Shown piece after piece: positions 6,201-59,545 of a stretch of DNA of 64,000 nt (its first letter is position 1; each line of letters begins with the position of its first letter). The DNA lies in the NCBI GenBank assembly GCA_903813345.2, contig CAIIXF020000009.1, positions 11,836,030-11,900,029 on the forward strand, given 5' to 3'. This stretch comes from Owenia fusiformis (lineage: Eukaryota; Annelida; Polychaeta; Sabellida; Oweniidae). The notes beneath the pieces were generated by a model. It saw only the letters and a list, made by a program, of their open reading frames with translations, did not search any database and was not told the DNA's origin. Position numbers and translations under genes: made by a program.

Positions 6201-6384
6201 AAGGGCTTGCTACGTCTATATTAGGGCACACCACAAAAATACACTCACCTTCCATTTGATCCAATCGTCCATTATCGGCAACAGTTTCCGTTCTCCTCAT
6301 TCTAGAAGGGTGTAACTCAACAAAAGCTGCACGTATGGTAACAGCCATCAAGCCTACAATGGCAGCACTTTGAAGCAGCCACAT
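3255..6384 (-). CDS. Secreted 706-aa protein of unknown function, four exons
   Basis: I do not recognise the family. Coding exons (minus) are 6384-6249, 5825-5680, 5392-4923 and 4623-3255; they join in frame to 706 residues plus stop. Residues 1-20 form a hydrophobic signal peptide, so the protein is probably secreted or lumenal. About 38-85 is a heptad-like coiled coil that runs smoothly across the exon 1-2 junction, which supports that splice choice. An H/G-rich conserved-looking block begins exon 3 (about 95-150). The C-terminus has a paired motif: HTH (641-643), HSH (671-673), then two Cys and His699 in SCDG...CKDGHS; metal binding is possible but is only inference. Intron 3 needs a GC donor to keep frame. 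Exon 4 and its flanks recur at 62530-63898 with five amino-acid changes in 434 residues. No transmembrane segment is seen after the signal peptide. The exon 2 acceptor is the least certain boundary. Confidence 0.75.
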
Positions 6385-7788
6385 CTTCTACGTACGTTGG
6401 AATCTTACAGAGCTCTCTTTCTTACTTTTCGATAGCTTTTGCATCAACTTTGCTTCTCCCAATGTTCGTGATTTATGTCTGTTTTGGAACTTGTTGCATT
6501 AGTGTAATTGTATTAACCGTGTGTTTTAAATGCTTAAAAGCCATCTCACCAGGGGGAACAGAGATTTTCACGAAATAAGTAATGTCATGCAAGAAGTATA
6601 TTTGTCAATTTGCAAAATATTCATGCTGATTTGGCAGTTGCTCATTTTCTACTTTCATTTTTAAATCGTGACACAGTTGACGTCGTCACTTTTACGGGGT
6701 GGAACCACCTCCTTCTTGATGAAAACGATAAAAATAAAGAAATCCTCCGACGAAAGTTCATTCATTTTGTTATAAAGACGTAACGTAACGTGCGGACCAG
6801 TGAATCGAAACGTTTGCACTGAACTAACTAGCTTCAGATTTGAGATATGATTTTACTGTCTTCCTCCGAGTAGCTCGATACACGTAAACAGTAAGAGCAT
6901 GCGAACTTGTTTACCCCAATCCGTTGTTTTGACAAAGTTGAACATGAGAGAATCGGTTAAGTGTCTCCATATCACAGCATGACTTACATTAGCTATCGTA
7001 TTTAGTTAAGTGACCAGTTATATAATAAGTCTATTAGACTACGTTCGAAGTAAACAAAGTCCCACGATTAAAAAAGTGAATGATATGTGCGTGACCCAAA
7101 TCTACAACCCTTGAATTTTGGAATATTTTGCAATTAATGTAATTACTTATCGCTGTCTAATTCTGATGTCACTTCGATATGCGCTCTCATTCATTTTGTT
7201 AGGTGTACACATATTGACTGAGTGAGTCACCCCAACCCCTTTCTCTACCACCTTCGGAGTTATAAAGATTTGAACTGTTCTTAATTCCAATTTGTATCTT
7301 GCATCTTTATGCAACTGTGACGAGATCAATGGCAGCAATTTTTGTATTGTGCCTTTATAATGTCATCAAAATGGGTAAAACAAAAAATTCTATTGTTTGA
7401 TACCAATTCTAGATATCTCCAATATATAACACACTACACAGAAAATTGGCGTTTGATTGCAGCATACATCTACTACTTTGGACAAGTTCACACAACACAT
7501 TTTTTCAAGAGCTTAGTATAAATTTATCATTTTGTCATAAACTTCATATTTACAGAATGACTGCACAGAGCCTTCCTTCACAGTTGATTACTAGACATCA
7601 CCTCAAGCTATTTTAATTACAGACATCCAATTGCAGTTTTAATTAAATTTAATCTTTTTAATTTTAACAAGGTGTTCACTGAATGGCTGTGGCTTGCTCT
7701 ATCAACAAAAAGTAGTTATTGGACACTAAGATGTATATTGTTTACAAGTCTATCAAATTTTGTTCAACTGTAAATCGAATTATCGTAT
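6385..7788. other. Intergenic spacer between the 706-aa gene and GH10 gene A
   Basis: AT-rich. It should hold the promoter of the 706-aa gene on the minus strand (just above 6384) and the 3' UTR of GH10 gene A (just below 7789). I see no convincing ORF, RNA gene or repeat. Confidence 0.4.
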
Positions 7789-10700
7789 TTAGTTCAAGCC
7801 ATAGACCGCCTCAAATTGTTGGACGGTATCTTTAAACACACCAGCGCTGCGTTTAATAATGTCCGTTTTCTCAGGCTCGTTTATTTCCACATTGATCTCG
7901 GTAGTGCTGCCCTTCTTAACGCTGAACTCGCGCGTTTCGACAACATTGCCGTCAACAATGACGTCCATTTCATAATCGCCGTAGAAAGCGCGAAACCCGG
8001 ATGTTTGTTCACGCATGTGCTTCTCTGGCAGGGTGAGATAGCCATCTGTTCTCCATTCTTTCTTGAATAATCTATTCACCGTCCACCCAGCCTGATTAAT
8101 CTGAAATCGTTTTAAACTATTTTGAAAGATTTCTAGTATGAATTTATCTGTGAGTAGACTAAATAATGTGATCAATCTTGAAATATTGTAATGTATCACT
8201 GCCAACCCTATGCGTCATTCTAGAGAACAAAAGGCTCAATTCCCAATGTTGGGTTTTTTACTCACATCGAAATCTTCCGAGTCAACGAGGCTTGTGTCCG
8301 GTGTGGTAAGACTGCTATCCCAGAATCCCCTGAAGAAAATGCTGTCAACGTTTGGTTGGGCGAACGCAACACGGAGAAACTTCTCGATGTCATTGGCGCG
8401 TTCAACAACATCCTTACGTTGGACTTGAAACTGGGAAAGCATAATTGGGACGCCAGCTTGTGCAAGGATATCAAAACGAGCCTACAAATAAAACGTTAAA
8501 AATTCGTTCATACAGCCAAGGCATTAACTTTCCTTCAAAATGTTAATTTATTACTTGAAATACATATTTTAATAATATTATATGGCGGATACATAATCTT
8601 GGACAGCCCTTATCAACTGAAAACCCCCAAAATGTAGGTCCAAAATCACAAAGCTTATAATAAGTAAATACATGCATGTAACATGTAACAAATATTAAAA
8701 CGTGGACGCCTTGGACAACTCTAAATGTGAACCCCTTTTTCCATATCCCATTTTTATCCCATGTTAAAAAAACTTAAAATGTAAACACCCGCCAATCCGA
8801 ACACCTCTTGTCGGTCCAAATGGCGTTTGAATTAGACAGGTCCAGGCTGCGTTCGGATTAGAAAGGTTATACTGTACTTTGAAAGTCGAAAGTATTTACC
8901 GCAATTCGTATGGGATCTACTGCGTTCGTTTCCAGGAAAGTTCCCTGCGCATCGAGCTGAGGCGAGTAGCCAGCAGCCTTCAGAGTTTTGATTTGGTTGA
9001 CCATAGCCTGAAATGTAGATAATTATGTGATTTAGTATTTTTGAATCTAAAATGTAATTATTATGCTAGCTTTACAAAAAAGGTATAATACACGTCTTTA
9101 CACGATGTAACACATCACTACAAAAGACGACACTAGGCTATATTTTATCTTATTGCGCTCTTATGTAAAACTGCTAGAACCAAGTATGAGGTTGTATAAA
9201 GTTTGATACGTGAAAAAACAAACGATTTCAATTAATCATATTTAACCAATATTTTACTAACGGAAGCATAGTCGGGTTGTTGTATGGCGAATCTGTCGCT
9301 TAGCACTAAATCAGCAGAGCTATCGGCAGCACTCGTCCAATTAAACATCTTAGTTAGAATATCATAATCTTCCGTATACTTCTCGAAATCCCCTCTCTTG
9401 CTGATGCTTTCTCGGCTCACCAGCCATTGGTTTACCCTGAAGAATAAACTATTGTATAACATACCTAGCGAAGCATTTGTATGGAAGTCAATGGAGCTGA
9501 AGGACGGCTATATATTCCTGTATAGCCGCCGAACTTTTTTACCATGACAATTTTATGACGTCAAAACATGGAAACAAAGTGATTTCGACTGGAATCGTGT
9601 AAAATTTTGGTCTTTTTTCACCCATTATTCTACATAATACTTTCATGGAATGCAATGTAAATGTACTTTAGGTATGTAATACATCAATTATGTCCGTATC
9701 ATTGAATATATGCCTCGCAAGCTCGGGCTATATTGACGTCAGACTTCAGGCATATATTCAATGATAGGGACATAATGGCTAAGTATAGGTTGGACAAGAG
9801 GCCGTACGTATTTATTCCCCTTAATTAGTTTAAAGGGTTCCGATTAGCATCCCGTATAAAAACAATATGGCGGCTCCAGGCGAATCAACTGGATCAGTCC
9901 ATTTTTAAGAAATAAGGGGAGTGATTGCGTTCAAATAATACATGTACAACAGCCAATATAAATTCTTGTATTAGAACACGGTTTGTCTTGCTTTGTTTCA
10001 TTTGTAGGATATTTCATATGCCAAGCTGTGTGCTATTACGTTATGGGGAAATTTAGATGCCAATTTTTCCTTATTATACACAAATAGAAGATCCTGAAAC
10101 TTCACCCATAAATGTGGAATTGATTTGTCAAATAAAAATCACCCTTTTATAAATGTGTGACGATCTATAATATACGTATGCTATATAACAGTTAGAGGTG
10201 TTGACACAACGACCTCGAACCTGTGAACCCTTGAGTATTATTCCGGGATCGGGCCTTTTATACTAAACGGTGAGCAACACCAGAAACGAGCGTTCGATTT
10301 GCTAAACGATATGCGTCACCCTTTAACAACCAAAAGTTTTCATATCATATCAAAGCCTATTAATGTTTTGGTCTTAATTGTGTTCCTAATTCCGATATTT
10401 CAAAATGTATAACTTATATGATTTTTTGAATCCACAAACACAGACAGGCGTTGATAAGTGATCCAAAATGGGGGGATGTAGCTTTAACATAGGAACCCGG
10501 ATGTAACTGCTCAGCCATTGGTCAATATTTGTTAATAAGGAATTTTGATATTGAAAATTTATATTCGTTTGAGCGAAGCGATTTAAGAATATAAATACTT
10601 TCTATATATGTGCAGTGAAGTGAAGAAAAGGCATGAATCATGATTTGGTGATGTAGCATGCTGTTCGAGTTGAGCAAAGATTTTTGTGTGTTAGGCCTTG

Positions 10701-13700
10701 TTTATGCCTGGGTCACATATGCTCCGATCCATCGGCCGGCGCCCGGCCGATTGAGTATGTGACCAAGGCATTAGTGAGTGAGTTTTATGAATTGAGAAGT
10801 CATTCTGGGCTTGGTCGCCGAACAGTCAACTCCAAAAAAATTTAAGCAAAATTTTTTAAAAAGCTATTTCTGCATTCAAACAGATTTTACCTATGATTGG
10901 GTCTGATGGGTTGAGAGGTGGGGTTATACCTTTCCATAGGGCATCGACTTCAGTCGAATAGCATCTTTGGTTTTAATGGTGATCAACCACCTTGATATCA
11001 ACCAGGCAACAATTAAACGTTGCATACAACTGTTTTACTAATTGTACAATATACCCGACACAGTTTCTGCCATATGTACACGTATAATAGGATTTACAAA
11101 TAAGCAGGCCATGCAAACAGTCTTACAAAACGATATCAATCAAAAGTATTGTAAACATCTTGTCACATGTACACATACTAGTATTTACAAATAAAGGGTA
11201 GCGACCACAAGCAAAAGTGTAGCGGCCACAAGCCAAAGCTTGATCTAAATTAAAGGTGTGTTGTGTTGTGTTGTGTAACATGCCGTGTACGTAACGTGAC
11301 GTACAGAATAGAATTCATATTATCAAAAAGAGTTACAGATTTTAAACCTTCACTTAAATTCTCTGGCAAAGTACAATGACCACTTACTCCAGCTTTAGTT
11401 CCGACCACTGTATGTTGTCCCAAATTTAAGTCACATTTTACTCGTAAATACGATGGCAATAATTTAAACTTCATTGCTCCTGCTTTTAATCCGCGAGACA
11501 GCTGCCCCCTAACGTTCGTTTTTCTTGATATTGTGACTTTGAATATGAATTTGGACTTACTTGCCCTTATACCGCCCGACAAGGTCCTTCGCTCGTTTCT
11601 CCATTTTTTCAACTTTCTCATCTGAAGACAAAGCCGTGAACCAGTTAGGCCAGAATCCTTTATCATTCCAAAATACTGATTGCCCAAGAACATTCACCCT
11701 ACAATTAATAAGTCAATTTTGTCAAATTAATTCCGGGTTCAATTTAAAGTCTCTCAAGAGCACAAAAATGCAAGGATCATAAAATTCTTAGGAAACATGA
11801 TATCGAGCAACTGAATCTCGTATCACATATAGACAGAAGTTGGAATGGTATTTACTCTTAGAATTGTTTTGTGCTTTTCGTGTACCTACCCACGTTCATT
11901 TAAAGCATATGCAGCCCTGTCGCCTCCAAGCCACCACGGTTCATCCTTAAATCGAATAAAACCCATACATCATCTCGTACATAATGACTTCTTGACCGCG
12001 TTTGTGACGAAGCTTTTATATTGATAATGGTCGAAAATGTATTAATGATGTATTATACTAAGAAATTTTAATCATCCCTTCGTTCCTAATTTCAAATTAC
12101 TAATATTATGTAAACCTCCTATTTGCTGTACACTCAACTATAAGGTTTGGCATCTGGATGATCCCAATTATGTTTTGAACTATCTGTCAGGAATCCTTCT
12201 GATACAAATATTTGGAATTGAGAAAATTGGAATTTGAAGTTCTTAATAACCTGATAATTGTACTAAATGAAATACCTGGTGATACTCTGTGACCCTCCAT
12301 CTAAAGGCGGACATGGGAGTACCGGAGTTGAACGTATCGTAGAAGTAATCTTGATATCGCTGCCTGACTTCATCGCTAAACCAAGACCCATTGATGAGCT
12401 GCCATCGGACGAAAGCACCAAGCTTAAAGTCGTGTCGAAGCTGTCTTATCTAAGAAGGATTGCAAATGAATTAAAAGCGAAAGGGCATGGGTCAGTGAGA
12501 GGCACATTACGTGTTCGGATCCTTTTTTGTTGACTGATTTTTTACATTTCGCTCTGAGCATATAATAATTTGATTCTGTGTTCAGGAAAATGATGCAAAC
12601 CATTTTCAGATTTTTAATACACTTCACCGTAGTGTTGAAACAAAAACATTTTTATATGTGTGTGTTAATATTTAATTATATTGCATCATACTAAGCCTTG
12701 AATTCGATGTCTTTCATATCAGTAAAAGAAAATACCGACTTAGGCAAGGCTACATCATACCTTAAAATGAACAAAGCTTGGGTCCATGTTGTAGTTAATT
12801 TTCACACTGAAAACAATACATAAATATCACTGGGGGGGGGGGGTTGCGTTTGGCTTCTATATATACAGGAAGCAGAGATCTAACAATTACTTTTAAAACA
12901 CCGTTTAGTAAAATATCAAGCATATGATTATCCATATATATTCAACTATTATAAATAGATCAACCTTATAGCAAAACACGAAATATCTTACTTGACGTTT
13001 ACATCTCCTTTTCTATGTTCGTCAATCATTTCATTCGCTGCAGCTTCCCAGTCCTCCTCTGGAGTGATCCGTCTCAAACTCACCTCATCAATGGCGAAGT
13101 TTACATACTGACTTGAAGGGCTCGAGAAATAGACCCTCTGTTTAGTCGCTGAAGTACAAAGAAAATTTTTTTCTTGTGCTTAATCTTACACGGAAATGAA
13201 GATTATACATTAACAAGCATTGAACAACCATAAAAATATTGTTACTTTATACATTAACAAACATTGAACAACCATAAAAATATTGTTACTTTACGCCATT
13301 TAATTCATGTTTATTGTATAATATTGCATAGCCATACGGCCTTTTTATGAAATAAAAACTGCACTACACTGCACTGCACTGCACTGCACTGTACTGTACT
13401 GTACTGCACTGTAATGTATTATAAACAGTCAAAGTGTGTACTTCCATTACAATATCTGCAGTGATTGATAATATCTACTTACTGTTGCTTGGAACTACGA
13501 ATTCTCCAGCAATTTTCACCCAACCGTCAGTGTCTCTCAGTCGGGGATATCGTGCAATTTTGGGGTATACTTTCTTTCCTAAAATAAGTGATTAATATTG
13601 GTTTATACCATCATTTTTCTATTCTCAGGCAGATGTATATGACATGGTTTCTAAATGTACATATGACGTGCACGGACCTGGGGACAATTCGGGAAATGCG

Positions 13701-16700
13701 GGCTTATCTCAGCTTTGAACGTTAATCTCTGCCTTATTTAAAAAGTCAACTATGTGTTTTACATATCATTTATTCGCATTTCAATGAAATTATTTTTCTT
13801 TCCAAATTTTGATGGGATCCAACACATTTTTAAAGTTAAATATACTCCGACATCGTCAAATACGCTGTAAGACGTAACACTTTACGCTTACAGGGCTCGT
13901 TGGAATTGAGATAACTTTTGAAATAATGATCAAAATCCCACTTAAATTTCACAATTTATTCAATGGAACATTTGCATTTATGACGTCACAATTGCTTAAC
14001 GGCTACATTTCAAATTATCTTATACGAACGCTTTTAAAATTTTCAAAATTGTGTAAGGTTTTGAAGGCGAATGGGACGAGCAATAAGTTTACCTTCATTT
14101 AACCTTCTAATTTAGGTCTGATTTGAAAGAAAATTTAACTGCACAATATTGTCAGGGCGAAATTGTTTATTTTGCAAATAATATCAAAAAAAGAGCTGGT
14201 TTTCGAGACTTGAAAAAATGTGACGCATCGATTTTTTACCACAAATTCCATACATATCAATTTTTACTAACGCCCCAAGTGGATTTCTTGACCGTTTTTC
14301 AAAATTCAAAAACATTTTAGAAATATTGTCCTCGAGATCTTGCTACCCTGTAAATTTTGTAATGATTAGATAAGAATAAAGTATTTTATTTTTAGGTTGA
14401 CTAAACTTGTAAAAAATGTGACGCTTGTCGTTTTTGACGTTGTAAGGCTGTTTGCGCCCTATACTGCTCATTGTTTTGTTTTGTTTTTTTGACGCCATAA
14501 TGTTACGCTAATTGTCCCCAGTTTCGTGCGACGTGTAACACGTTTTATATTTTAAGTCCCCGTCTAAAGTTTGAAAATATTTTTTTATCATTCATTTACT
14601 ATTTGTCAGGACTTAAAAAGTGATTTTAGAGACTTTTGAACAAAAAAAAAATTTTGAAAAAAAAGTTGTGAGCATTTCATTTCTCAAATATTTAAATTTC
14701 CCGCAATTTTTCAAAAAAAGTTGAAATTTCTTAATCATCAAATATTTCTTAATGCAATTCAAAAAAGATTATCTTTTTAACACCAATGCAAAGATTGAAC
14801 AAAAGACACACTATTTCAATAATAAAATGTCATATTTAATGGGCCACTTTAATGTTTTAGCTTATCAAAAATATTTTGAAACATTAGTGATGTCACTAAG
14901 GTAACAAAAACTTTTTGAAAAAAATTGAATTTTTTTTTTCGATGTCAATCTTTTCTAAATATGCTAGGCTTTCATAAAAAAAACAATGTTGATTGTCTAA
15001 CCAGGTTAAAAGGAAGAATAAATTATGTTTTAGATATCATTGTACCATTGGTTTCTATGAGAACTAAAATTTTGAAATGCATTTTTCTCAGAACCATTTT
15101 CATGCACTGATAAGTTCATTTCTCGCTTGTTTATGAACCGATTTTCTTAATTTTTTCGGCGAAAAATATGGGAGGATGTATGCTATGCATTGGTATGAAT
15201 TGTGGCTAATTAGAAGATATGAGTGACCTCTAAAAATTGGTTTTAAATAAATTCACAAATTTTGGAACAAAAAGTCTATCAAAAACCACTTTTTGAAATT
15301 TAAAAAAAAAGTTTCACATTTCACACTTTGATAACATTGGATAAGACTACAATATAAGCCAAAGTGGTTTAAACTTTACATGGGGCCTTTAACAAAAATA
15401 GTGATCCATAATTCTGATTTTCTTTATTGAAATAAAACCTCCACCAACCGTCTTTATCAAGATAGTTGAACATCATGTCCATCCTGAACCAGTCATAGCC
15501 GATGACCTCGGGATGATTCAACAGCTTAACGTATGCCTCCATGTAGTAGTTCCCTGGCTGTAGAGCACGGTCTCCTTTGAGCCACTGGCCGAGAAGCCCC
15601 CATTTCGATCTCCTAAAAAATATGGTATCGTTAAACGTTCATGACGTTTCAATTACTGTACACGTATTCCAGGAAGAGGGCGATCTTGATCATGTCCAAT
15701 ATCAGATATGTTACGCGGTAAACACGATACAAAAATATGTCATATTCCGCAACGAATATGGCATATTCACTTGCGGTGTATGACAGATTCACCTGCGGCA
15801 TATGGCATACACACTAACCAATGAGAACGTGATACGGAAGTACGCAATTGTCAATTGCATCGATTGAACGAACAAGTACAAAACGTTATTAATTATTATA
15901 ATGATTACTGAATCAAACATTATCGAATATATTAACTTAGCAGACGTATCACTCGTGTAATAAACTTACTCAATCAATCCAGGATTCATATATTAGTACT
16001 CGACGCACTAACTATAGTGGTAATCCAGCGTAGTTTTACATTTAGAGTCGATTCTCGCAACCAATCAAATCAAGGCTTTCTGTATCACGTTTTCACCTGC
16101 GGTATATGTCATATTCACCTGCGGTATATGGCATATTCTGCAAGTGAGTATGACATATTCCGCAGGTGAGTATCGGGTATTCACTGAAATCAATGTATCG
16201 CATATTCACTGCGGAATATCGCATACTCACCTGCGGAATATGCCATATACCGCAGGTGAGTATGGCATATTCACCCGTATCACAAATACCGCGCAACCAT
16301 GAATGTATGCCATATACCGCGTAACAAGATATGTGTAACAAGATGCGTGATTTAGTGCTGACTTACACGTGTCGTTTAACAAATACATGCAATGTTTATT
16401 TACACGTTACTCTCTGAATACTGGGGTATAAACACATGAGAAGATAAAATATTGCCTTATTATATGATTCTAATATCAGCGGTTGTTAATTTCAAACGTA
16501 CTGTATCACTTTTCAAAATAATACATAATAATTCACTATAAAATGCTGATGCTTTACTACACAATTGGAAAAGGTAATTAAACAATGTTCTTACTTGTCT
16601 GTTATGGCAGCAGCTTTGCCCTTAAATCCTTGGATCTGGGAGACTTTGGCATGTAGGGGCCACCACTGGTAATCGGAGCTCCACCTATCGGACTCCATAT

Positions 16701-16812
16701 CTCCGTTTGTTAAAAGCTCATCCTTTTCTAGTTTGTAGATCCCGAGACTGTTCGATTGAACACACCATAATGTCAAAAGACATAGCCGAAATAGTATACC
16801 CATTTCTGTCAT
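7789..16812 (-). CDS. GH10-like secreted protein A: signal peptide, CBM4/9-like, GH10 fold; predicted pseudoenzyme
   Basis: Twelve exons (minus): 16812-16595, 15612-15449, 13578-13483, 13148-12992, 12806-12761, 12449-12276, 11945-11890, 11698-11561, 9436-9262, 9007-8900, 8481-8266, 8100-7789. All joins keep frame, giving 619 aa. Residues 1-22 are a signal peptide. About 28-212 is a CBM4/9-type module (LLTNGDMES; GWVKIAGEFVVP). About 228-516 is a GH10 barrel (FNSGTPMSAFRW for the family FNxVTxENxMKW; GFWD near the end), followed by the C-terminal exon with GWTVNRLF...EWRTDG and FYGDYE seen in invertebrate GH10 proteins. Known GH10 xylanases use an acid/base Glu in WDVVNE and a nucleophile Glu in TELD. 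Here the first is WLVSRE (E359 kept, Asn replaced by Arg) and the second is SQFQ (Q461). The substrate-binding RGHTLVWH strand reads LGQSVFWND. Hydrolysis is therefore unlikely; carbohydrate binding remains possible. The exon 2 donor (GTTGGT) is weak but phase-consistent. Confidence 0.88.
9437..11560. other. Intron 8 of GH10 gene A: hairpin and MITE fragment
   Basis: 2.1 kb without coding signal. 9687-9776 is an imperfect hairpin with 29-base arms beginning attatgtccgtatcattgaa and a loop of about 32 bases. 10706-10769 is a short relative of the element at 38640-38771, with ends gcctgggtcac and gtgaccaaggc. 11070-11190 carries a two-copy 'agtatttacaaataa' motif. The plus- and minus-strand ORFs over 11250-11782 are the wrong frames of exon 8. 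Confidence 0.55.
13203..13412. repeat. Two-copy 47-bp tandem duplication and (ACTGC)n microsatellite in intron 3 of GH10 gene A
   Basis: About 13203-13249 is repeated at 13250-13296 with one or two differences (attgaacaaccataaaaata in both). At 13360-13412 a pentanucleotide run of actgc changes to actgt part-way. Confidence 0.8.
13665..14535. mobile_element. Non-autonomous TIR element 'R1', unoccupied copy
   Basis: About 870 bp with imperfect terminal inverted repeats sharing ctggggac: gacgtgcacggacctgggga on the left and the reverse complement of cgtcgcacgaaactggggac on the right. It lies in intron 2 of GH10 gene A. The reverse-complement copy occupies the homologous intron of gene B (24599-26398), where it carries an 890-bp insertion. 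The 65-codon ORF at 14123-14320 recurs in the other copy but has no recognisable domain. Confidence 0.75.
14562..15395. repeat. Dispersed AT-rich repeat 'R2', uninterrupted copy
   Basis: The region matches 53475-54525 in reverse complement over its length, for example gcatttttctcagaaccatt and aagactacaatataagccaa. The 53-kb copy has an additional foldback insertion. Almost pure A/T with A-runs and no plausible coding sequence. Confidence 0.7.
15700..16375. repeat. Short-word array (atatgccatataccgcaggt) in intron 1 of GH10 gene A
   Basis: A 20-25 base word containing gcatattc/accgcaggtgagtat recurs in both orientations, most densely from 16090 to 16320. Isolated relatives occur at 1360-1400 and 2440-2540. 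The segment 15780-15910 is the unoccupied counterpart of the MITE-bearing repeat at 1120-1400. Confidence 0.75.
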
Positions 16813-18443
16813 ACTGCTGGTCCCGGTGCAGAAAACTGAGAAAAGCGGAGACAGGTGAGTATGCCGTTTCTTCTTTCTTCTTGGATTTCACTAAATACTT
16901 TTTGCTTATGCTTTCCTCACTGGCCCGTGATTTAATTTCAAAATGTTACGCTATTATGATCGTGTCTTAAAAACTTGAAAACACCAGCGGGATAACTCAC
17001 GAAGTTTCGAGTGAGACGATAATCTTTAATGGAAAGTACAAATGATTTAATTTTTGAGAAAAGTGGTCAAATCTTTCCATTATAAGTTCACGCTGGGCAT
17101 TAATGGATGTAAATGGTACTGTGACAACGCTTGACATAATCCCAATTATCGACCTAACACGAAAACAAACCATAATAGTACATAGGTCACTTTGGGTGTT
17201 TTGAAGTAAATTACATATTTGCTGGATCCTTTCAATTTTGTCAAGTATAAAAATGATTATGTAGCCTTATTTTTGTTTGGAGTAAAAGAAAATGAGATTG
17301 TTTTCAAAATTTATTTATACATAGCCCCGACTGTATCTAACTTATAATCCAAATTCGACCAACAGATAAATATAAGAAAAAATATGGATATGAATACTCA
17401 GGCTTTAGCTCCTTTATTTATTTAAATCTAGCCATTTATCTGAATCTGGGTTACTTATTTATGTACATACATGTAGTTGGAACTCGGTACAGGTAGGTAT
17501 CAATACATCAAGGACAATATTTTTCGGCCGTTTTTTAACCTGTAGATGTGAAGTAGCTGTCTTATTATCCACGTGGGTTCGCGATCCGTCACTGTGAGGC
17601 TAAATTTGGGCATGGTGTGAGGGATTGCTGTATAACTAGTCATTTTGCCCACCGTGTCCAGCCGTCTGTCTCAAAAGTTTTCACTTGGTGGCCCACACAG
17701 GCCTGAGTGTGACAGCTAAATTGGAGCAAATGTTGCGTTAGTCCATTGTCTATTTATTGTCTACATTTGATTTAATCAGTACTAGCTCACTTTTCAGATT
17801 TTTTGTTCAAATCATGCTGGGCTCATTGAAAAAAGCATGAATTCGGCAATAGTTTGTTAAGGTTTTTCTAAGGTTGTCTATGGTGATTTGAAAAGTTCAC
17901 TATCTATTTGTCAATAATTTTCGAATTTTGTGCGAGAAGTTAACTGTTTTTGCTGTTTTAATTCAAATATACATGTAGACATAAGCAACGGGGGTACACA
18001 TGTTTCAAGTATAACGAAATTCGTGTTGCCATATGTATGGAGAAAGGTGGCCACAATACGGTTTAATATAATCTAAACTTTGTTGCAAATAAACGTTTAC
18101 AACAAACATTTAGATCTATTATATTTCCTCAGCAAAATGTTAACAGAATGAATCTTCAACTTTACAAAAAACACAATATTCTTGAATAGTTAGGCAGCTG
18201 TTACCTTCCAGACAACAAATTCAACGTTGCTGTCTAACATGTCCATATTTTTAGTAATCAAGGTTTATATATTCAAAGATATATCTAAAAAATAGTTCAA
18301 CTTATCATAGATCCACTAATCATAAATCAAATAATGGATTCATAGTTTTCGTAAGATTCATTAGAATCAATGTAGATGAACGAATGCAACGTTCGGGTTG
18401 CAAATCATAAGTGTATGCTACTTTGTCCACGTAATGAATCTGA
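16813..18443. other. Intergenic spacer between GH10 genes A and B
   Basis: It should contain the promoter and 5' UTR of gene A (above 16812) and the 3' UTR of gene B (below 18444). No clear TATA box, repeat or additional gene is seen. Confidence 0.4.
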
Positions 18444-21400
18444 TTACAATAATGCGTTGAATTGTGTCATATCTGCAGAGTATACACTGCGCTTCTCAAC
18501 AGAGTCGCCATGCTTGGGGTTGTTGATCTCCACATTAACTTCAGTAGTGACGTCTTTATGAACGCTGAACTCACGCGTTTCGACGACCTCACCATCAACA
18601 ATGACGTCTATTTCGTAATCACCGTAGAATGCTCGAAAGTCGGTAGACTGAACCCTCTTGAACAGTTCTGGGAGGGTCACATATCCATCAGTTCTCCACT
18701 CCTTCTCAAACAGTCGACTGACGGTCCATCCTGCTTCGTTTTTCTGCAACATAATTGTGGCATAATTTTACGAAGACGTGGAAACTAACTTCGAACTCAT
18801 TCATTCACAGGCCCGTAAGACACTTTTCTCCAAGGGGGGTGCGGTTTTTAGCTTCCTAAAGAGAATATAAAATTGTCAATTTTTTGCCGCGTAAATCAAG
18901 GGGGGGGGGGCTCAGTTACTCCTTATATTGGTTTGGAATTAACAAATGCAACTTCCAAACGTTCCAATTGTTTTGTGGGGGGTGTGAGGAGTGGTCCACT
19001 CCCCCTAGAAAATTTTACAGTTTTGAGATGCTATTTGGTGCTTTCTGGGCACTTTCAAAGTGTAAGTTTCCAAGTAGTACGCCACCACCACGGGAATAAG
19101 AGTTGAATGAATAAAAAACCGAGCATTCAGGGGGTCTGGGGGGTGTCTGTGCCTCAAAGTGCCTATTTCCCAAGAATATTTTACAATTTTAAGATTCTAT
19201 TTGATGCTTTCTGGGCACTTTCAAAGAGTACGAGTCAATAAAAAATATTTGAAAAATCTTTTTTTGGGGGGGGGTGCCAGAGGGGGAGGTGGAGTGGGGA
19301 TGCCAGAGGGCGAGTAAGTGTTAGTCTTCCAGAATCATTAACTTTATCGAGGAGCTATTTGATGATGTCTGGGCAATTTAAAAGTGTCTGAGACAATACA
19401 AAAAACAAATTCAGAACTTTTCCATTGTTTTGTTTGGGGTGTGAGGCGTGGCCCACTCCCCCTACTTATTTCACAGTTTTACGACGCTATTTGGTGCTTT
19501 CTGGGCACTTTCAAAGTGTATGAGTCAATTAAAGAATTTGAGAAAATCACAATTTTTTTTTGGGGGGGTCAGGGGGGGGGTTCAGTGGGGGGGGGGCGCC
19601 AGAGGGGGGGGGGTTATGCAAGTGCAAGATGCAAAAGGGGGAGCAAGTCCCCCAGAAACACTAACTATATCAATGAGCTATTTGATGATGTCTTGGCACT
19701 TTAAAAGTGTCTGAGACAAAACACTAAAATAAATTTAGAACTTTTCCATTGTTTTGTGGGGGGGGTGTGAGGAGTGGCCAATACCCCTAGAAAATTTTAC
19801 AATTTTAAGATGCTATTTGGTGCTTTCTTGGTACTTTCAAAGTGTATGAGTCAATGAAAAATATTTTGGGGGGTGACAAAGGGGGGTGCGGTCGCACCCA
19901 TCGCACCCCCCCCCCCATCTGACGGCCCTGATTCACGATATGTGTTTTAATGTAGTTATATTAGAAACAACAAATTATTCGAGTCTATATGGGACGTTTT
20001 TACATGGATATATAGAAAACCACAGCAAGACACAACTCAAGGCAGCACTCAGTTCAATGCGAATTCTTCATTTAATATCTAGAGCATTGGTACATACATT
20101 GACTTCATTGGTGTCTACAAGGCTTGTATCAGGCTGAACCAGCTTTTCGTCCCAGAATCCATCCAGTGTTATTCCTTCTACTTTGGGATGAGCAAACGCA
20201 ACTCTCAGGAAGTTTTCAAGGTCATCGGCACGTTTGATGACGTCATCACGTTGAACATGTAACTGCGATACCCAAATTGGAACATCCGCTTCGGCAAGTA
20301 TGTTTAGTCGCGTCTGGAAATAACAGTGTAAAATTACTTTACATTTTTTTCAATTTTAGCATTTTTTTGGCTCATATTATTCCCTGCCTTGTGTTTTCTC
20401 TAAAAATACCCAATGTGCATACTTTCTTTTTCTACAAATGTGGTCACCAAATTTATTGTCTGGGAGTATATAGAGATTATATAGGATAATATGTTTATCC
20501 CATACCAATCTTGGTCATCTGGTTCACATTGTTCAATAGTTGAAATATTTTAGAATATTCATGTCCAGTTTTGTTTTCTTGGCCGTGGGCATATTTTCCT
20601 GTTCTCTCAAAGATTCCCACAATTATTTTCTCGAATTTTTGATTGATTAAGTGGATGCTCCTTCCCTTTTTTAAACCATCAAACAGATCACGATTGTCTG
20701 TGTTTTCTCCATTGTCGTTTACAGTCAATACGCGAACGTGACAAATTATGAACAAATATGCGAGCGGCGATTATGACGTAGCGGGCAGATATACTATATC
20801 TGCCCGCTCGGAGCGGGACGTATTTAGCTATATCTGCCCGCTGATGAAAATATAAGTTTTTACAAACCGGCTTTATGTACCTCACCGCGACCAATTTTGC
20901 ACTTGAAATCTTAAAAATGTCACCGCTTGATATTCCCTATCCCTATATAAAAAGTTTAATAGTATGTATTTTAAAATTATAATTGCAGAGCGGGATGTAT
21001 TTCGTAATTTACACGTCTCGTATAGTTTGGCAACCGGATGTCCCCATTGGACCACATATTAAAACATTTTCATGTTCTAGATTTAAAAAATATCTGTAAT
21101 ACACTGTAGTGTATCTATACTTCGTTATTTTTTGACCTATTGAAATTGAGGAATAACATTTTGAAAAACATTAACAGTCGTTAAGCGCGCCATCCAATGA
21201 TAAGTGCATGTTGCCAAACTTAGGGAGGAGTGTATCTATGAAACACGAACCTCTTACCATAATTTTGATTGGCTCGACAGGATAGTCGTCATCAAACTGG
21301 CACTGGACGTCAATGTGGGGAGAATGGCCGGCATCTTTGAGTCTGTTAATCTGATGAACCATTGCCTGGGATAGAATACAATACGATCAACAGAATGGTA

Positions 21401-24400
21401 TCCAAACATTGGCATACTCCTTAAGACTTCCCTCTGTAATGTACATGTTCACTGGGAATCTCAAACAGTATTATACAAAATAGGTTTAATGTCAAACATG
21501 AAAGCATGAACATAAATAAGCATAGCATATGCATATTTTATCTTAATTTGTCAATGCATCGTTTTGTTCTTTTCATCTACCATAGTAATACTATGTGGAA
21601 GCAAACCTTAAACATGGTACTGTGTTGTAAATTAAACAAATGACTGATGATTTTTTCCTTTAAATAAATAAAAAAAATGCCAATGGTATAACGTCTCTTA
21701 AGACGAAATATTTAACCACTGTACTGTATTGTAAAATTGTTAAATGTAGGATTACATGTAACTGTACTGTAATTGTTTTTTGCAATTGCTTTAACATGCT
21801 TATTCTTTGAAATAAAAAAATTATAAAAAAAAAAAAAAGTATTGTAACCTCATTGTACTTACGGAGCTTAAATAGGACATTCTGACAACATCGTTGTTGC
21901 TTAGTAACAGCGTTGCATCTTCATCCGCAGCTCTAGCAAAGTCAAACATCTTAGTCAAAATATCAAGATTCTTTGTATATGTCTCAAAGTCGCCTTTTCT
22001 TGATAAAGTATCTTCGCACACAACCCATTGATCGACGCTGTAAGAAAACACAACTAGCCTATCATGAAAAACAAGAATTTTAAGCTTTGAACCATTTGAA
22101 AAAATAAAAATATACTTTTATTTAATGGCTCGCCATGTTCAAATAAGTTAAAAAGTACAATCTATTTAAATAATAGGCTTTAGGGAGTTTAAGCTTGCAT
22201 TTAAAATCGAAACGCCAACCTATACGTATAACCAATCACCCATACAAATGCATCGCTTAAATATTTTCCCTTCACGTTTAGGTTTTGAAAAACATTGCAA
22301 GCTTAAACTCCATTACATCAATTAGAAAAAACTGAACTCAAAAGTAGTTTTTCAATCGCATATTTTTCTATTTATTACCTTCCCTTGTAACGTCCGATCA
22401 GATCATTCGCCCTTTTATTCATGGCTTTTACCAATTCTTCGCTATCCATGTTTTTCACCCATCGTGGCCAACGACGAGCATCATTCTCAAACACAGGTTG
22501 TCCATAAATATTCATCCTAAAATATTTGAATATTTCTGAAATTAGCCAGACTACCCCACTCAAGAGTAACCTTAGTAACCATATTTTTCATCAAACTAGA
22601 GTTGAATCAATACATCCTGGCATTCTTATCTGTGCTATTATTAATACATTGTTAAAATTTGAAAGAAAGTGTCACAAAACTCCTAATTTAAGGCACCTTT
22701 CTCAGAATGTATTGATTGTCCTAGTACATTTTGAAACCATTTTAACAAATAAGTGATACGATGAGTTAAGTAGTCGAACATGCTAAGCTCGGAGCAGTCA
22801 GAGTTGCCGTGAGTTCGAGTCACGTGACCCACTTGAATTTATTCATTCCATTTGTTAAGTGAACTTATGAAGAATTCGTTACTCCTTAACTAGGCGAGTG
22901 CTGAATAGTTAAACTTAAGCAAGTGAGAGCGATACACACCCGAGGGCCGTCCCAGTCATTTACATCCATGGACCTCCGAGGTCAAACAATATTCCACGCC
23001 TTGGTTCAACACACTAAGAAACGATCTCACACCCCTCCCACAACCATTGTAAAATTACTTACCCATTTTCTTTGAGAGTGTAAACTGCTGGGTCACTATT
23101 CTTCCAATCTAATTCATCCTGGAATGTAATACGTAAAAGGGACTTATAAAACCTATTCTTAATTAAACTGATAAGTAGTTAAATTAAGGGGAAACAATGC
23201 CAAGGAAGTATCAACCTTTTATTTTGTAATAGTCCCGTGTTTAGTGCCAATCAAATTAAAAACTTTGCCTTGCTACCTATTAGAAAATTGTATTTTAGGA
23301 GAAACTATATCGGCCCCAAAACATAGACACCATGCTGACGTACATAAATATTGTCAGGCCTATTACAATCTCTTACCTGTGTAGGTTCTACTTTGCTCCA
23401 CTTGAAGCGCAAGGCTGGCGTCGCGGAGTTGAAATTGTCGTAGACGTAGTCCCTGTAGCGGTCCTTGAAGTCCGGTGCGTAATTGTTAGAAGCATTAATA
23501 ATCTTCTCTGCCACATAAACGCCCAGCTTAAAATCATGGTTTAACTGCCTTACCTGAAATGGTAAAAAGGGATTGGCCTGATAGATTATGTCTTAAAACA
23601 TTAGTTTAGTTAATAGAAAAATCCACAATCGGATATTTAACATTATCTATTTCAAAGGCTGTGCATGCTGGCTTAGTTCGCGATTGATATGACGGACGTT
23701 GGTTCATCAGATAATAAACGGAACAGAAACATAATCATAATGAATTGTAGTCACCAAAAATTTCAATTTCAATCTATTTAGTGTAATGAAATCCTATCTA
23801 TTTTACTAGTGAACGACTAAAATGAAGCCAATTTTTTGCCTGTGTTATAACTGTCTTTATTGAATTACCTCGAATCCTACGAAGCTTGGGTCAAGGTTGT
23901 AGGTTATATTCACGCTGTAATATATAACATTATTTATCTCATGATCATTGCAATATAAGGAAGGATATAATATTTTTGCATTTCAAATCTTCAATGGTAA
24001 TTTCCCCAAATTATAACATATTGCAGATCTTTTCAGAAACATCATATTCTAGATCATAAGGAATATATTGGTAGGTCAATTGTAAATTTTGCTTGTTATT
24101 TTGTCACGCCTTATGATCTAATTCTGCCTTTACTATCTTACATCCCTTAGATCACTACAGAATCCTGATTTCTGTACCTTAATTTTACATTCCCCTTTCT
24201 ATTTTCGTGTATCATTTCATTGGCAGCTATTTCCCAATCAGCCACTGGAATAATTTGCTTCAGACTGACTTCGTCCACTGCAAACTTCAGGTTCTTGTCT
24301 TTGGATTGGAAGAGAACCATCAGTTCTGTACCTAGAAATCAAAACAAAAACTTAAAATTGGAAAAGAAAAAACGAAAATGTACAAGATATACTATTACTA

Positions 24401-27400
24401 ATCCAAAACACCAAAATATTCTTTTAATAATGGTATGCAACTTACGCAACCAAAATATAATGTCACTTACAATTTGATGGGAGCTCGAATTCACCGGCAA
24501 TTTTCACCCATCCATCGTCCGACCTTAGACGGGGGTATCCATTCAAAATACTAAACTTGTTTTTATTTTCTGAAATAAAATATGATCATATATAATTACA
24601 CGTCGCACGAAACTGGGGACAATTAGCGTAACATTATCACCCTTGGTATACGCAGCTAACGAAAAGTGACCGGTACGGGTCAAAAGCTGGACCGGTACGG
24701 GTTAACGGTTTTATTTGAATTTAAAACAGCCATAACTTGCTCAATATTGACTTCCTCGTGTCTAATTTGAAATATATGATGCCTCCTGATGCTTTTAAGT
24801 ACCCCAATTTTTTACAGATTTTTAAACTGACCAAAACTCTCTAAATGCGCATTTATGCTCTTTTCTCTCATGAACGACTGTCTCATTTTCACGATAACTT
24901 TTATTTAGTACTTCTAACATATAAGATCTATTTTTCCCCATCAAGGTATGATGTAAATGGCATGCTATTTACATCTTGTGAGTTTCAATGACGCGCGTTT
25001 GATTTTATAAAAAATGCCAAACTTTGTGACAGAGAATTTCATCCTGCTTGCAGCGAGAAGACGGACCGGTTCGGGGCAATCTGCTTGCAACGAGAAGACG
25101 GACCGGTTCGGGGCAATAGCTGATGAAATTCTTTGTCACAAAGTTTGGCATTTTTTATAAAATCAAATGCGCGTCATTGAAACTCACAAGATGTAAATAG
25201 CATGTCATTTACATCATACCTTTTTGGGGAAAAATAGATCTTATAAGTTAGAAGTACTAAATAAAAGTTATCGTGGAAATGAGACAGTCGTTCTCGAGAG
25301 AAAAGAGCATAAATGCGCATTTAGAGAGTTTTGGTCCGTTTAAAAATCTGTAAAAAATTGGGGTACTTAAAAGCATCGGGAGGCATCATATATTTCAAAT
25401 TAGACACGAGGAAGTCAATATTGAGCAAGTTATGGCTATTTTGAATTCAAATAAAACCGTTAACCCGTACCGGTCCAGCTTTTGACCCGTACCGGTCAAT
25501 TTTCGTTAGCTGCGTATACCAAGGGTGATTATGGCGTCAAAAAACCAAAACAAAACAATAAGCAGTATAGGGCGCAAACAGCCTTACAACGTCAAAAACG
25601 ACAAGCGTCACATTTTTTTCAAGTTTACTCAACCTAAAAATAAAATACTTCATCCTTATCTAATCATTACAACATTCACAGGGTAGCAAGATCTCGAGGA
25701 CAATATTTCTAAAATGTTTTTGAATTTTGAAAAACGGTCAAGAAATCCATTTGGGGCGTTAGTAAAAATTGATATGTATGGAATTTGTGGTACAAAATCG
25801 ATGCGTCACATTTTTTCAAGTCTTGAAAACCAGCTCTTATTTTAATATTATTTGCAAAATAAACAAACTGGTTATTGTTTTGTAAATTTCGCCATGACAA
25901 TATTGTGCAGTTAATTCTTCTTTCAAATCAGACCTAAATTAGAAGGTTAAATGAAGGTAAACTTATTGCTCGTCCCATTCGCCTTCAAAACCTTACACAA
26001 TTTTGAAATTTTTAAAAGCGTTCGTTTTAAGATTATTTGAACTGTAGCCGTCAAGCAATTGTGAGGTCATAAATGCACATGTTCGATTGAATAAAATGTG
26101 AAATTTTAGTGGAATTTTGATCATTATTTCAAAAGTTATCCCAATTTCAATGAGCCCCGTAAGCGCAAAGTGTTACGTCTTACAGCGTATTTGACGATGT
26201 TTGGGTATATTTAACCTTAAAAATATGTAGGATCCCATCAAAATTTTGAAGGAAAAATAATTTCACTGAAATGCAAATAAAAAATACTTCAAAAAGATAT
26301 ATAAAACACATAGTTAGCTTTTTAAATAAGGCAGAGATTAACGCTCAAAGCTGAGATCAGCCCGCATTTCCCGAATCGTCCCCAGGTCCTTGCACGTCAT
26401 AAAATTTGGAACTATAATATAACATAATATCGTAATTGCAGTATTGTAGTTCTCGTGATTTCTCTGTAAAGAATCTGCAAATCATTGATGCACTAGGTCT
26501 ACCTGGGAAAATAATATGAAATTGACGGAAGTAAGTTTCGCCGAGTTGCGTGAGTTTCGGGTTGATTTACAAGTCATAAACTCTCAGATTTAAAATGCTT
26601 TAAGTTTACGTTTGTTTATTTCGTCATTGTAATCTGAAGATATGATAAATATAAATAATAACAGTCGTACACAACCACTACATCTTAAACATTATAATAT
26701 GTACACAGTATTTCGAAGTTGCGCTAGGTTCAGACTTACAAACCTAGAACTTACGTTTCGCATTTTTGTAGCCGTATTTCATGTTCATCTCAAACCAGTC
26801 AGAACCTTTAGGATGGTTGATAATCTTGACATGGCCTTCCATGTAGTACATACCACCATGAGGCACCTCGTCACCTGTAAACACCTGACCAAATACAGCA
26901 TTCTTTTTTGTCCTGAAAACAATGAAATTAACTATTAAAGGCACTGTGTTAAGTTTGGAAATATGTTTTTATCACTATTAAGTTGTCAGCTATTTGTCAT
27001 ATGTTCAAATTTCCTGCCATTTTCAAAGAAATGTTGAAATATTTTGATATAATTCAGATAGATATTTTGCGGACTACTTTATTTATCAAACAATATAGTT
27101 TTAAGTATTTTTTTAATTTCATCACATTTGCAAGATTGCAGCAAATTGTTAAAGGAATTGGAGAATGATAATATAAAATGAGTTTGGATCGCTTCACACT
27201 CCAAGTGCAGGGTTCAAGGCATCACGTGCACCCAGTGTGGACGATGTCTGTCCACTGCGTACGGTCGGACGGGATATAACTTACATATTCGAGACAAGAG
27301 CTCCCTTCCCCTGAAGTCCATCTGTATGGGTGACGGTAGCTCCCTTGCCGTACCAGTGATATTTGTTTTTATTGTCAAAGTCACCTATATCCATATCGCC

Positions 27401-27523
27401 GTTTTTTATCAACTCCTTCCCAAGTTTGTATAAACCATTGCTTTGTAATGTAGAAGCCATGCAGGTTAACATTACCACAACTTGGAATGAGAGTTTTGAT
27501 CCCATCATTACCATTTTGATCAT
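18444..27523 (-). CDS. GH10-like secreted protein B: signal peptide, CBM4/9-like, GH10 fold; predicted pseudoenzyme
   Basis: Twelve exons (minus): 27523-27285, 26912-26755, 24569-24471, 24331-24178, 23914-23869, 23553-23377, 23118-23063, 22516-22379, 22037-21863, 21365-21258, 20313-20098, 18743-18444. They join in frame to 621 aa, and every intron phase equals that of gene A. Residues 1-28 are a signal peptide; KNGDMD and GWVKIAGEFELP mark the CBM4/9-like module; the GH10 fold spans about 233-522 (FNSATPALRFKW; NRLKDAGHSPHIDVQ; DGFWDEKL). The acid/base segment reads WVVCED, so Glu is replaced by Asp365 and the preceding Asn by Glu364. The nucleophile segment reads VSQLH, with Gln467. The RGHTLVWH strand reads YGQPVFEND. 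The active site is thus more eroded than in gene A, yet the reading frame is fully open, which argues for a retained non-catalytic role. The first ATG is used; Met4, Met6 and Met7 are alternatives. A broken partial copy lies at 58446-59545. Confidence 0.88.
18808..19930. mobile_element. 1.1-kb G-rich TIR element in the last intron of GH10 gene B
   Basis: It starts caggcccgta and ends with the reverse complement of cagggccgtc, flanked by ATTCA on both sides (18803-18807 and 19931-19935). The interior is a degenerate tandem array: the word tgctatttggtgctttctgg recurs near 19030, 19195 (variant), 19485 and 19815, separated by long G-runs. The plus-strand ORFs over 18873-19714 are products of this array and not genes. 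Shorter relatives with similar ends are at 36394-36594 and 48051-48227. Confidence 0.65.
20780..20808. repeat. Near-perfect palindrome agcgggcagatata / tatatctgcccgct
   Basis: Two 14-base arms around a single C, within intron 10 of GH10 gene B. A third copy of one arm, tatatctgcccgct, follows at about 20829-20842. The surroundings are unusually GC-rich for this intron. Confidence 0.8.
21000..21245. repeat. Diverged member of the 745-1115 repeat family
   Basis: It shares 'gttgccaaacttagggagga', a 'gacctattgaaattgagga' segment and the same order of words with 745-1115, but with many changes. It ends just before exon 10 of GH10 gene B. Confidence 0.5.
22183..22312. mobile_element. MITE, PIF/Harbinger-like, second copy
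   Basis: 130 bp with ends gggagtttaagcttgcat and ttgcaagcttaaactcc, flanked by TTA at 22180-22182 and 22313-22315. The interior resembles the copy at 1230-1361 closely (caatcgcccatacaaat versus caatcacccatacaaat). It sits in intron 8 of GH10 gene B. Confidence 0.8.
22520..22875. repeat. Intron 7 segment of gene B, duplicated in reverse at 58446-58790, with a tRNA-like box B
   Basis: The segment matches 58446-58790 in reverse complement with few changes (attgattgtcctagtacatt). At 22790-22835 the sequence gagttcgagtcacgtgac resembles a pol III box B, so part of it may be a tRNA-derived SINE fragment. No complete tRNA cloverleaf is apparent. Confidence 0.6.
24599..26398. mobile_element. TIR element 'R1', copy carrying a nested foldback insertion
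   Basis: Reverse-complement counterpart of 13665-14535, located in intron 2 of GH10 gene B. Its left end is cgtcgcacgaaactggggac and its right end is the inverse of gacgtgcaaggacctgggga. It is split after ...gcgtaacattat by an 890-bp insertion at 24638-25527. Confidence 0.78.
24638..25527. mobile_element. 890-bp foldback element with arms of about 430 bp and ATTAT target duplication
   Basis: Nearly the whole element is an inverted repeat: it begins cacccttggtatacgcagct and ends with the inverse, and the arms match with scattered changes to a short centre near 25080. It is flanked by ATTAT at 24633-24637 and 25528-25532; the empty site in the other R1 copy has one such pentamer (14497-14501, inverted). 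The tips contain paired 'accggtacgggt' words. No ORF. A partial copy of one arm lies at 61920-62140. Superfamily not assigned. Confidence 0.85.
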
Positions 27524-39770: not shown

Positions 39771-39972
39771 AGGTATGTTATGGTTCTTGTCTGCAAGTAT
39801 CATAACAGTTTTTATGTGAACCAATAGGATTCCTTGGACAATTGGGGTTGGAAGCTATAGCTAGGAACTTTCCCTGGCACCTCACTTTGGACCAGTACAT
39901 TAAAGACACAAGAGTACATTAAAGACACAAGTTCTGTTAGACAATTTTTCAAATAAAAAATTCAAAATTTAA
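39771..39972 (+). repeat. Split direct repeat A1 of the Ngaro-like element
   Basis: 202 bp starting aggtatgttatggttcttgt; repeated as A2 at 45814-46015. It contains an internal 'gtacattaaagacacaag' doublet. Confidence 0.9.
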
Positions 39973-40067
39973 CGGAGGCCTTAGGATACAAGTAAGCAGA
40001 ATTTTAGGACTCCAGGAAAATATAACACGGTTAGTGATTTATTCAATTATTGACTTATGATGTCAGT

Positions 40068-41988: not shown

Positions 41989-41989
41989 A

Positions 41990-43907: not shown

Positions 43908-43939
43908 TAAAAAACGCCAACTCTTTATTAAGTAAAGCC

Positions 43940-58445: not shown

Positions 58446-59545
58446 GTAAGTTCACTTAACAAATGAATAAGCTCAAGTCGGTCACGTGTCTCCAACTCAC
58501 GGCAACTGCTCCTAGCTTAGCATGTTCGACCACGTAACTCATCGTATCACTTATTTGTTAAAATGGTTTCAACATGTACTAGGACAATCAATACATTCTG
58601 AGAAAGGTGTCTTAAATTAGGAGTTTTGTGACACTTTCTTTCAAATTTTAACAATGTATTAATAATAGCACAAATAAAAATGCCAAGGTGTATTGATTCA
58701 ACTCTACTTTGATGAAAAATATGGTTACTAAGGTTACTCTTGAGTGGGGTAGTCTGGCAAATTACATAAATACCCAAATATTTTAGGATGAATATTTATG
58801 GACAACCTGTGTTTGAGAATGACGATCGTCGTTGGCCACGATGGGTGAAAAACATGGATAGCGACGAATTGGTAAAAGCCATGAACAAAAGGGCGGAGAC
58901 ATATACAAAGAATCCTGATATTTTGACAAAAATGTTTGACTTTGCTAGAGCTGCCGATAACGATGCAACACTGTTACTAAGCAACAATGGTGTTGTCTGA
59001 ATGTCCTTTTTAAGCTCCGTAAGTACAATAGGTTACTACATAGTAACCTTTTAAAATTTGCTTCCATATGGTATTTCTATGGTAGATGAAAAGAACAAAA
59101 CGATGCGTTAACAAATTACGATAAAACATGCTGATCAATGCATATAATTAGAGAATATAATATGCTTATTTATGTTCATCCTTTCATGTTTGACATTAAC
59201 CCTATTTTGCAGCACTTTACAGCGATGTAAACAGTACTAAACAATGTAGTTCAAGCACTGCGTTTTACAGCGATGTACAGTGCTACTCTTACATCACTGT
59301 TTCGAACAGTGTAGTACAATACCGTTTCTACAACGCTGTAGAGCAGTTTTATAAACAGCGTTGTATAGTACCGTTTGAGATTGGCAATGTACATGATACC
59401 AATGCAGTATTAACGTAGGAAAGTCTTTATGAGCAGTATGCCAATGTTTGGATACCATTCTGTTAATCGTATTGTATCCTATTCCAGGCGATGGTTCATC
59501 AAACTAACAGACTCAAAGATGCCGGCCATGGGATGGCCATGATAC
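58446..59545 (+). pseudogene. Broken partial copy of GH10 gene B (exons 8-10), inverted
   Basis: 58446-58790 is the inverse of intron 7 of gene B. At 58788 the exon 8 sequence begins (MNIYGQPVFEND) but after the codons for NKRA it jumps into the middle of exon 9 (ETYTKNPD...), with intron 8 and the catalytic-site segment deleted. The Arg codon of VVRMS is TGA at 58998-59000. Intron 9 follows, with a foreign insertion of about 200 bp at 59210-59400, and exon 10 begins at about 59487 (MVHQTNRLKDAGH) and then loses similarity. No upstream or downstream exons are present. Retained introns show that this is a DNA-level duplication and not a retrocopy. Confidence 0.88.
59210..59400. repeat. Imperfect short repeats (cagcgatgtaca-type words) inside the pseudogene
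   Basis: Words such as acagcgatgta, aacagtgtagta and acaacgctgtag recur in both orientations. They are absent from the parental intron of gene B, so the block was inserted or expanded after duplication. Confidence 0.55.

Follow-up and report, generated by a model that had tools for sequence, protein, structure and literature searches.

Two tandem genes on the minus strand of a contig of the annelid Owenia fusiformis (GenBank assembly GCA_903813345.2, contig CAIIXF020000009.1) most likely encode pseudoenzymes of glycoside hydrolase family 10 (GH10) that are under purifying selection, and are neither xylanases nor pseudogenes. They lie in a stretch of 64,000 nucleotides (positions 11,836,030 to 11,900,029 of the forward strand; GC content 33–39%), hereafter the window, within which all coordinates are counted. 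Classical GH10 catalysis has very likely been lost in both, here termed gene 1 and gene 2: the position of the nucleophile Glu holds Gln, and eight of twelve presumed active-site positions are replaced in both proteins. Their maintenance as proteins is well supported by the comparison of the two paralogues.

Gene models and family membership

Both genes were rebuilt from open reading frames and GT-AG sites, taking for each intron the best-scoring splice pair that keeps the frame. The reconstruction was guided, in that one core peptide per exon was chosen by eye among the open frames. It agrees with the original prediction of open proteins of 619 and 621 amino acids, encoded by 12 exons each across positions 7789–27523. 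The proteins are identical at 309 of 610 residues (51%, BLASTP); the phases of all 11 introns are the same in the two genes, and intron positions agree within one alignment column. For the last acceptor of gene 1, 8100 (619 amino acids) and 8091 (616 amino acids) score equally, and gene 2 agrees with the former. Several further introns in both genes have lower-scoring alternatives that keep the frame; under all of those listed, the nucleophile codon stays within exon 11. Intron 2 of both genes contains a repeat of about 870 bases (13662–14501 and 25528–26401, 90.4% identical, in opposite orientation), and that of gene 2 holds an additional inverted repeat (24632–25533).

Family membership is indicated by Pfam, where both proteins exceed the GH10 (PF00331) cut-off of 22.1 bits (gene 1 58 bits, 1.2e-15; gene 2 75.4 bits, 5.9e-21). 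In the PDB, both proteins match the Beta-xylanase 7d88 best (3.7e-36 for gene 1, 2.8e-32 for gene 2), with the next other enzyme, 3niy, far behind (8.1e-14 and 1.7e-14); the 7d88 match extends beyond the barrel and includes the preceding segment and the C-terminal domain. Over the printed stretch, 7d89 differs from 7d88 by two Glu to Ala changes in the columns that align with the acid/base and the nucleophile, which presumably makes 7d89 an inactive mutant lacking both catalytic residues. An NCBIfam search with both proteins gave no match at E 0.01, and a scan of a viral contig collection with gene 2 yielded three pattern matches, none of them a relative. The original prediction had also placed a signal peptide and a module resembling carbohydrate-binding modules (CBM) of families 4 and 9 ahead of the barrel. 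The barrel stands; the CBM4/9-like module stays below the Pfam threshold in both genes. A hydrophobic leader, likely a signal peptide, was found in each, and it is this N-terminus that points to secretion of the two proteins. Near the C-terminus, exon 12 encodes a Lys-Arg pair followed by Ser (amino acid 599 in gene 1, 606 in gene 2), where processing could release a short C-terminal peptide.

Active-site positions and selection between the paralogues

One scan of a contig collection with the 7d88 fragment yielded 31 bacterial loci, which were aligned by MAFFT with both genes and the fragment. At 7d88 column 300, Glu in 31/31 bacterial relatives stands against Gln in gene 1 and gene 2, and HMMER alignments to 7d88, 7d89 and 3niy likewise put both Gln on the nucleophile Glu. 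Neither gene has the Glu nucleophile after strand beta-7 (TE motif) of GH10 catalysis, nor the Glu acid/base after beta-4 preceded by Asn, the latter pair reading R-E in gene 1 and E-D in gene 2. The original prediction had centred on the Gln-for-Glu exchange, with alignment to the GH10 profile and to solved structures as the proposed check; these alignments and that of the 31 relatives confirm Gln, and no Glu, at the nucleophile column. The exchange is real and one among many losses, which, like the acid/base Glu of gene 1 and a third copy in the window, had gone unmentioned.

Among the bacterial sequences, 61 alignment columns are at least 95% invariant. Twelve of them (7d88 columns 116, 117, 120, 153, 157, 201, 202, 270, 272, 300, 334 and 342) we take to be GH10 pocket positions, leaving 49 others; the list was limited to positions invariant in bacteria. 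Over all 61 columns gene 1 retains 31 and gene 2 retains 29. Retention in the pocket is limited to three positions in gene 1 (157, 202, 270) and two in gene 2 (120, 270), compared with 28/49 and 27/49 at the other invariant positions (indicative one-sided Fisher p values of 0.046 and 0.017). Only one of the 12 is retained in both genes, against 25 of the 49 (p = 0.0067, likewise indicative). The full set of 12 is present in 29 of the 31 bacterial relatives, including one with 30% identity to 7d88 (L028); the exceptions are L008, with 11/12, and the partial L029, with 5/12 and its acid/base column missing. Apart from the nucleophile and the beta-3 His, both proteins have lost the beta-6 His, the Glu-Asn pair of the -2 subsite, the Asn that precedes the acid/base and two Trp. 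Of the common losses, five fall in exons 6, 8, 9 and 10; exon 11 accounts for two more in addition to the nucleophile. The Trp at column 337 is retained in both genes, and columns 201 and 334 carry opposite charges, with Arg and Arg in gene 1 and Glu and Asp in gene 2.

Selection was assessed on 610 aligned codons of gene 1 and gene 2 with a pairwise maximum-likelihood codon model, adopted because synonymous saturation defeated counting methods of dN/dS, which returned no dS over the whole alignment. An omega (dN/dS) of 1 was rejected, with twice the log-likelihood difference (2ΔlnL) reaching 244.2 for the whole alignment, 131.1 for the GH10 part, 57.7 for the CBM part and 50.2 for the C-terminal part, where the branch length was unusable and the likelihood ratio alone is reported. 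Differences at the three codon positions amount to 0.356/0.269/0.615, and protein identity rises from 0.45 in the CBM part through 0.51 in the GH10 part to 0.61 in the C-terminal part. Identical residues occupy 3/12 active-site positions of the paralogues vs 35/49 other invariant positions (Fisher 0.0044), and when 12 aligned columns were drawn at random, three or fewer matches occurred in 2.1% of 20,000 draws. Agreement at these positions is the rule among 93 control pairs of bacterial relatives at 45–65% identity (partial L029 excluded), 86 of which match at 12/12 and seven at 11/12. As judged from the sequences, the fold is conserved between the paralogues and the catalytic pocket is not. 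Each gene has an uninterrupted frame (619 and 621 codons), and omega lies below 1 in the comparison of the paralogues with each other; together with the eight positions lost in both genes, this supports the conserved pseudoenzymes that had originally been proposed.

Proposed history, alternatives and neighbouring elements

The explanation that we favour as a whole, with a probability of roughly 0.6, combines catalytic loss before the duplication, purifying selection on the fold and a function in matrix or mucus as a secreted protein associated with carbohydrate. The ancestor of both paralogues would have been a 7d88-type GH10 xylanase (W..AN..I..HRK segment, barrel and C-terminal AF.G.YE domain). 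Prior to duplication, their common ancestor would have lost the machinery of a retaining glycosidase through changes of the nucleophile Glu and the beta-3 His to Gln, and probably also through replacement of the other residues named above as missing from both proteins (beta-6 His, -2 subsite Glu-Asn, the Asn ahead of the acid/base, two Trp). Since the genes share Gln at column 153 as well as column 300, and eight losses overall, loss before duplication is the simplest history; alternatively, the losses may be independent or may reflect gene conversion. Synonymous saturation indicates that the duplication is old. Purifying selection would then have maintained both copies for a fold that matters without hydrolysis, and the old pocket would have been free to drift or diverge between them. 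Any glycan contact would be made via the N-terminal CBM-like module, with the barrel and the C-terminal domain as a rigid scaffold for protein interaction. What suggests the role in matrix or mucus is the leader, together with the weak CBM-like module and the lack of conservation in the pocket.

Several observations weigh against this explanation. The CBM_4_9 (PF02018) scores of 15.9 bits in gene 1 and 23.6 bits in gene 2 are both under the cut-off of 25.9 bits. The CBM part is also the least conserved, and this neither favours glycan binding as the role nor singles out this module as the key part. The acid/base Glu survives in gene 1, and the beta-6 Gln is found in both genes. Owing to the saturated dS, the overall omega estimate of 0.068 is unreliable, and the rejection of omega = 1 alone is used here; moreover, the selection seen between the paralogues could partly predate independent losses. 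Finally, the p values for the pocket are indicative because the list of 12 positions was compiled after the first alignments had been seen, and because the bacterial rows are non-independent (six Bacillus at 90–99% identity to 7d88, many Bacteroidota and the partial L029).

Some chitinase-like proteins possess a barrel that binds glycan without cleavage, and the GH10 cleft could by analogy have become lectin-like. We regard this as a possible but doubtful reading. The GH10 fold is preserved, the Trp at column 337 is retained in both genes, and the N-terminal part gives a weak CBM4/9 match and, in gene 2, a weak best PDB match (E=0.046), to a fragment of xylanase C. However, the presumed xylan-contacting positions are poorly conserved between the genes, both lack the -2 subsite Glu-Asn pair and the two Trp, and the pocket agreement of 3/12 argues against a common sugar-binding cleft. 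Given the sub-threshold CBM and the weak PDB match, the polysaccharide-binding or structural role suggested in the original prediction is at most putative. It is unlikely, in our view, that the genes represent an old, selected family of GH10 pseudoenzymes, annotated as xylanases, whose dismantled pocket gave rise to paralogue-specific ligand sites; in that case the opposite charges at columns 201 and 334 would mean that each copy binds a partner of its own, or that the two bind one another. Altered enzymes that dispense with the classic nucleophile and are capable, for example, of slow hydrolysis or of transglycosylation by means of the acid/base Glu of gene 1 or a re-wired pocket, would be compatible with the retained Glu359, the beta-6 Gln of both proteins and the strong constraint on the barrel. 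Yet the acid/base position of gene 2 is Asp, both genes are without the Asn before it, the beta-3 and beta-6 His, the -2 subsite pair and the two Trp, and pocket identity at 3/12 reveals no common new active site, so that we consider continued catalysis distinctly unlikely.

Very little probability attaches to recent inactivation as an early stage in the decay of both genes into pseudogenes. A nearby third copy has indeed decayed and carries both a deletion and a stop, but the two main copies are open with matching splice positions, the saturated dS speaks for an old duplication, and we rejected this candidate because the codon model rules out omega = 1 (2ΔlnL 244). An error of gene model or assembly that conceals a true exon 11 with Glu is hardly credible. 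One junction of gene 1 is tied and lower-scoring splice alternatives exist elsewhere; against this, Gln is found in both genes inside a well-aligned exon 11 with GT-AG flanks, and the common losses extend to exons 6, 8, 9 and 10 and to two more positions of exon 11. When the three minus-strand frames of 7700–9100 and 18400–21400 were scanned with the pattern [ITVL][TS]E[LFYMI], the single match lay in the C-terminal tail of gene 1, outside the context of exon 11. No alternative Glu-bearing exon 11 is therefore visible in the scanned regions, and this candidate was rejected as well.

The surroundings of the two genes (Table 1) contain further copies and mobile elements. The decayed third GH10 copy matches gene 2 in three blastn pieces (92.4% over 460 bases, the two others 77–82%, with 77.0 the lowest); a deletion fuses exons 8 and 9, an in-frame stop is present, and the acid/base segment is missing relative to gene 2. 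Gene X, which adjoins the GH10 pair, had no useful match in Pfam or PDB. Its last exon is repeated at 62533–63918 on the minus strand, open over 462 codons and surrounded by DNA that is 92.8% identical; this repeated exon looks maintained, with omega = 1 rejected by the maximum-likelihood codon model (2ΔlnL 64.1). The third GH10 copy and the repeated exon indicate that the array has been duplicated and rearranged. The Mariner/Mos1-type transposase is flanked by inverted repeats (29838–30034 and 31581–31776, 93.4% identical). Direct repeats of 206 bases (99.5%) and 197 bases (100%) occur around the retroelement, which is probably DIRS-like. A tRNA scan with bacterial settings and an Rfam scan of the window found nothing.

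Table 1 Positions of the two GH10-fold genes, their active-site codons and other features of the window
Feature	Position	Strand	Description	Basis
Gene 1, probable GH10-fold pseudoenzyme	7789..16812	-	12 exons, 619 amino acids	Splice reconstruction, Pfam GH10, PDB 7d88
Gene 1 exons	16812-16595, 15612-15449, 13578-13483, 13148-12992, 12806-12761, 12449-12276, 11945-11890, 11698-11561, 9436-9262, 9007-8900, 8481-8266, 8100-7789	-		
Gene 1 exon 1	16595..16812	-	Hydrophobic leader, likely signal peptide	Kyte-Doolittle 11-residue maximum 2.11, residue 5
Gene 1 beta-3 His (G-H motif)	11680..11682	-	Replaced by Gln310	
Gene 1 acid/base position	9409..9411	-	Glu359 retained; preceding Asn replaced by Arg358	
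Gene 1 nucleophile position	8431..8433	-	CAG, Gln461	7d88 column 300
Gene 2, probable GH10-fold pseudoenzyme	18444..27523	-	12 exons, 621 amino acids	Splice reconstruction, Pfam GH10, PDB 7d88
Gene 2 exons	27523-27285, 26912-26755, 24569-24471, 24331-24178, 23914-23869, 23553-23377, 23118-23063, 22516-22379, 22037-21863, 21365-21258, 20313-20098, 18743-18444	-		
Gene 2 exon 1	27285..27523	-	Hydrophobic leader, likely signal peptide	Kyte-Doolittle 11-residue maximum 2.10, residue 13
Gene 2 beta-3 His	22498..22500	-	Replaced by Gln316	
Gene 2 acid/base position	22010..22012	-	Asp365; preceding Asn replaced by Glu364	
Gene 2 nucleophile position	20263..20265	-	CAG, Gln467	7d88 column 300
Third GH10 copy, decayed	58447..59529	+	Inverted fragments of exons 8-10 of gene 2 and of adjacent introns	blastn, tblastn, reading frames
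Gene X	about 3258-6387	-	Adjoins GH10 pair; leader hydrophobic by eye	
Mariner/Mos1-type transposase	30170-31468	+	Two open pieces	Pfam on first piece
Retroelement	39767-46304	+	Reverse transcriptase frame and overlapping tyrosine-recombinase frame	
MFS transporter	55794-57653	-	Long single open frame	Pfam Sugar_tr 7.3e-29

Relation to known systems

Xylanase-family genes in animals are usually taken as digestive enzymes. If some animal GH10 genes are pseudoenzymes of the kind proposed here, annotation counts overstate plant-digesting capacity. Inspection of two short motifs (TE.D and NE) would separate likely active from likely dead GH10 copies in the genome of any animal.

Invertebrate cellulases have been listed that include GHF10 enzymes of Ampullaria and Pomacea (PMC4123733), and the title of a reference in that work describes EGXA of Ampullaria crossean as a xylanase with an N-terminal cellulose-binding domain. 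EGXA and the GHF10 genes of Pomacea canaliculata resemble genes 1 and 2 in being GH10 genes encoded by animals (PMC4123733); they differ in being reported as enzymes, for Pomacea in the title of a cloning paper, a comparison made by description and not by residues. For the oyster, 11 xylanase genes are nearly constant across diets, and their role is called speculative (PMC13128122). The text of that work has no occurrence of GH10, and oyster xylanases are assigned to GH30 in a study that counts GH10 among putative endogenous transcripts of the digestive gland of a shipworm (PMC5840672). Bacterial GH10 is reported from the shipworm crystalline style (PMC8561940), a survey of putative plant cell-wall-degrading enzymes across animals notes a possible GH10 transfer in one springtail (PMC12198962), and in whelks a xylanase-annotated protein occurs in larvae (PMC4926457) and a transcript labelled 'RsgI6 (endo-1,4-beta-xylanase)', assigned to bacteria, in egg-capsule fluid (PMC10913743). 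Loss of catalytic residues in GH10 is not discussed in the relevant passages of this invertebrate xylanase literature, and the titles and abstract beginnings among the matches listed describe no animal GH10 pseudoenzyme.

The closest structural counterpart is the GH10 Beta-xylanase 7d88/9rhv, with which the Owenia proteins have in common the order of a W..AN..I..HR segment, the barrel and a C-terminal AF.G.YE domain (residues 189–590 of gene 1 are matched). Identity to 7d88 is 26% for gene 1 and 25% for gene 2, and reaches 99% for the Bacillus altitudinis relative. Unlike this enzyme, both genes have replaced catalytic and pocket residues and add an N-terminal CBM-like module. A parallel for the proposed loss of function is provided by chitinase-like proteins and the insect imaginal disc growth factors, secreted animal pseudoenzymes of family GH18 in which the catalytic Glu has been lost (Gln in the imaginal disc growth factors). 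They are similar to genes 1 and 2 in combining a glycosidase barrel with a lost catalytic Glu, and differ in belonging to GH18 with its other mechanism; the correspondence is one of analogy and not of membership.

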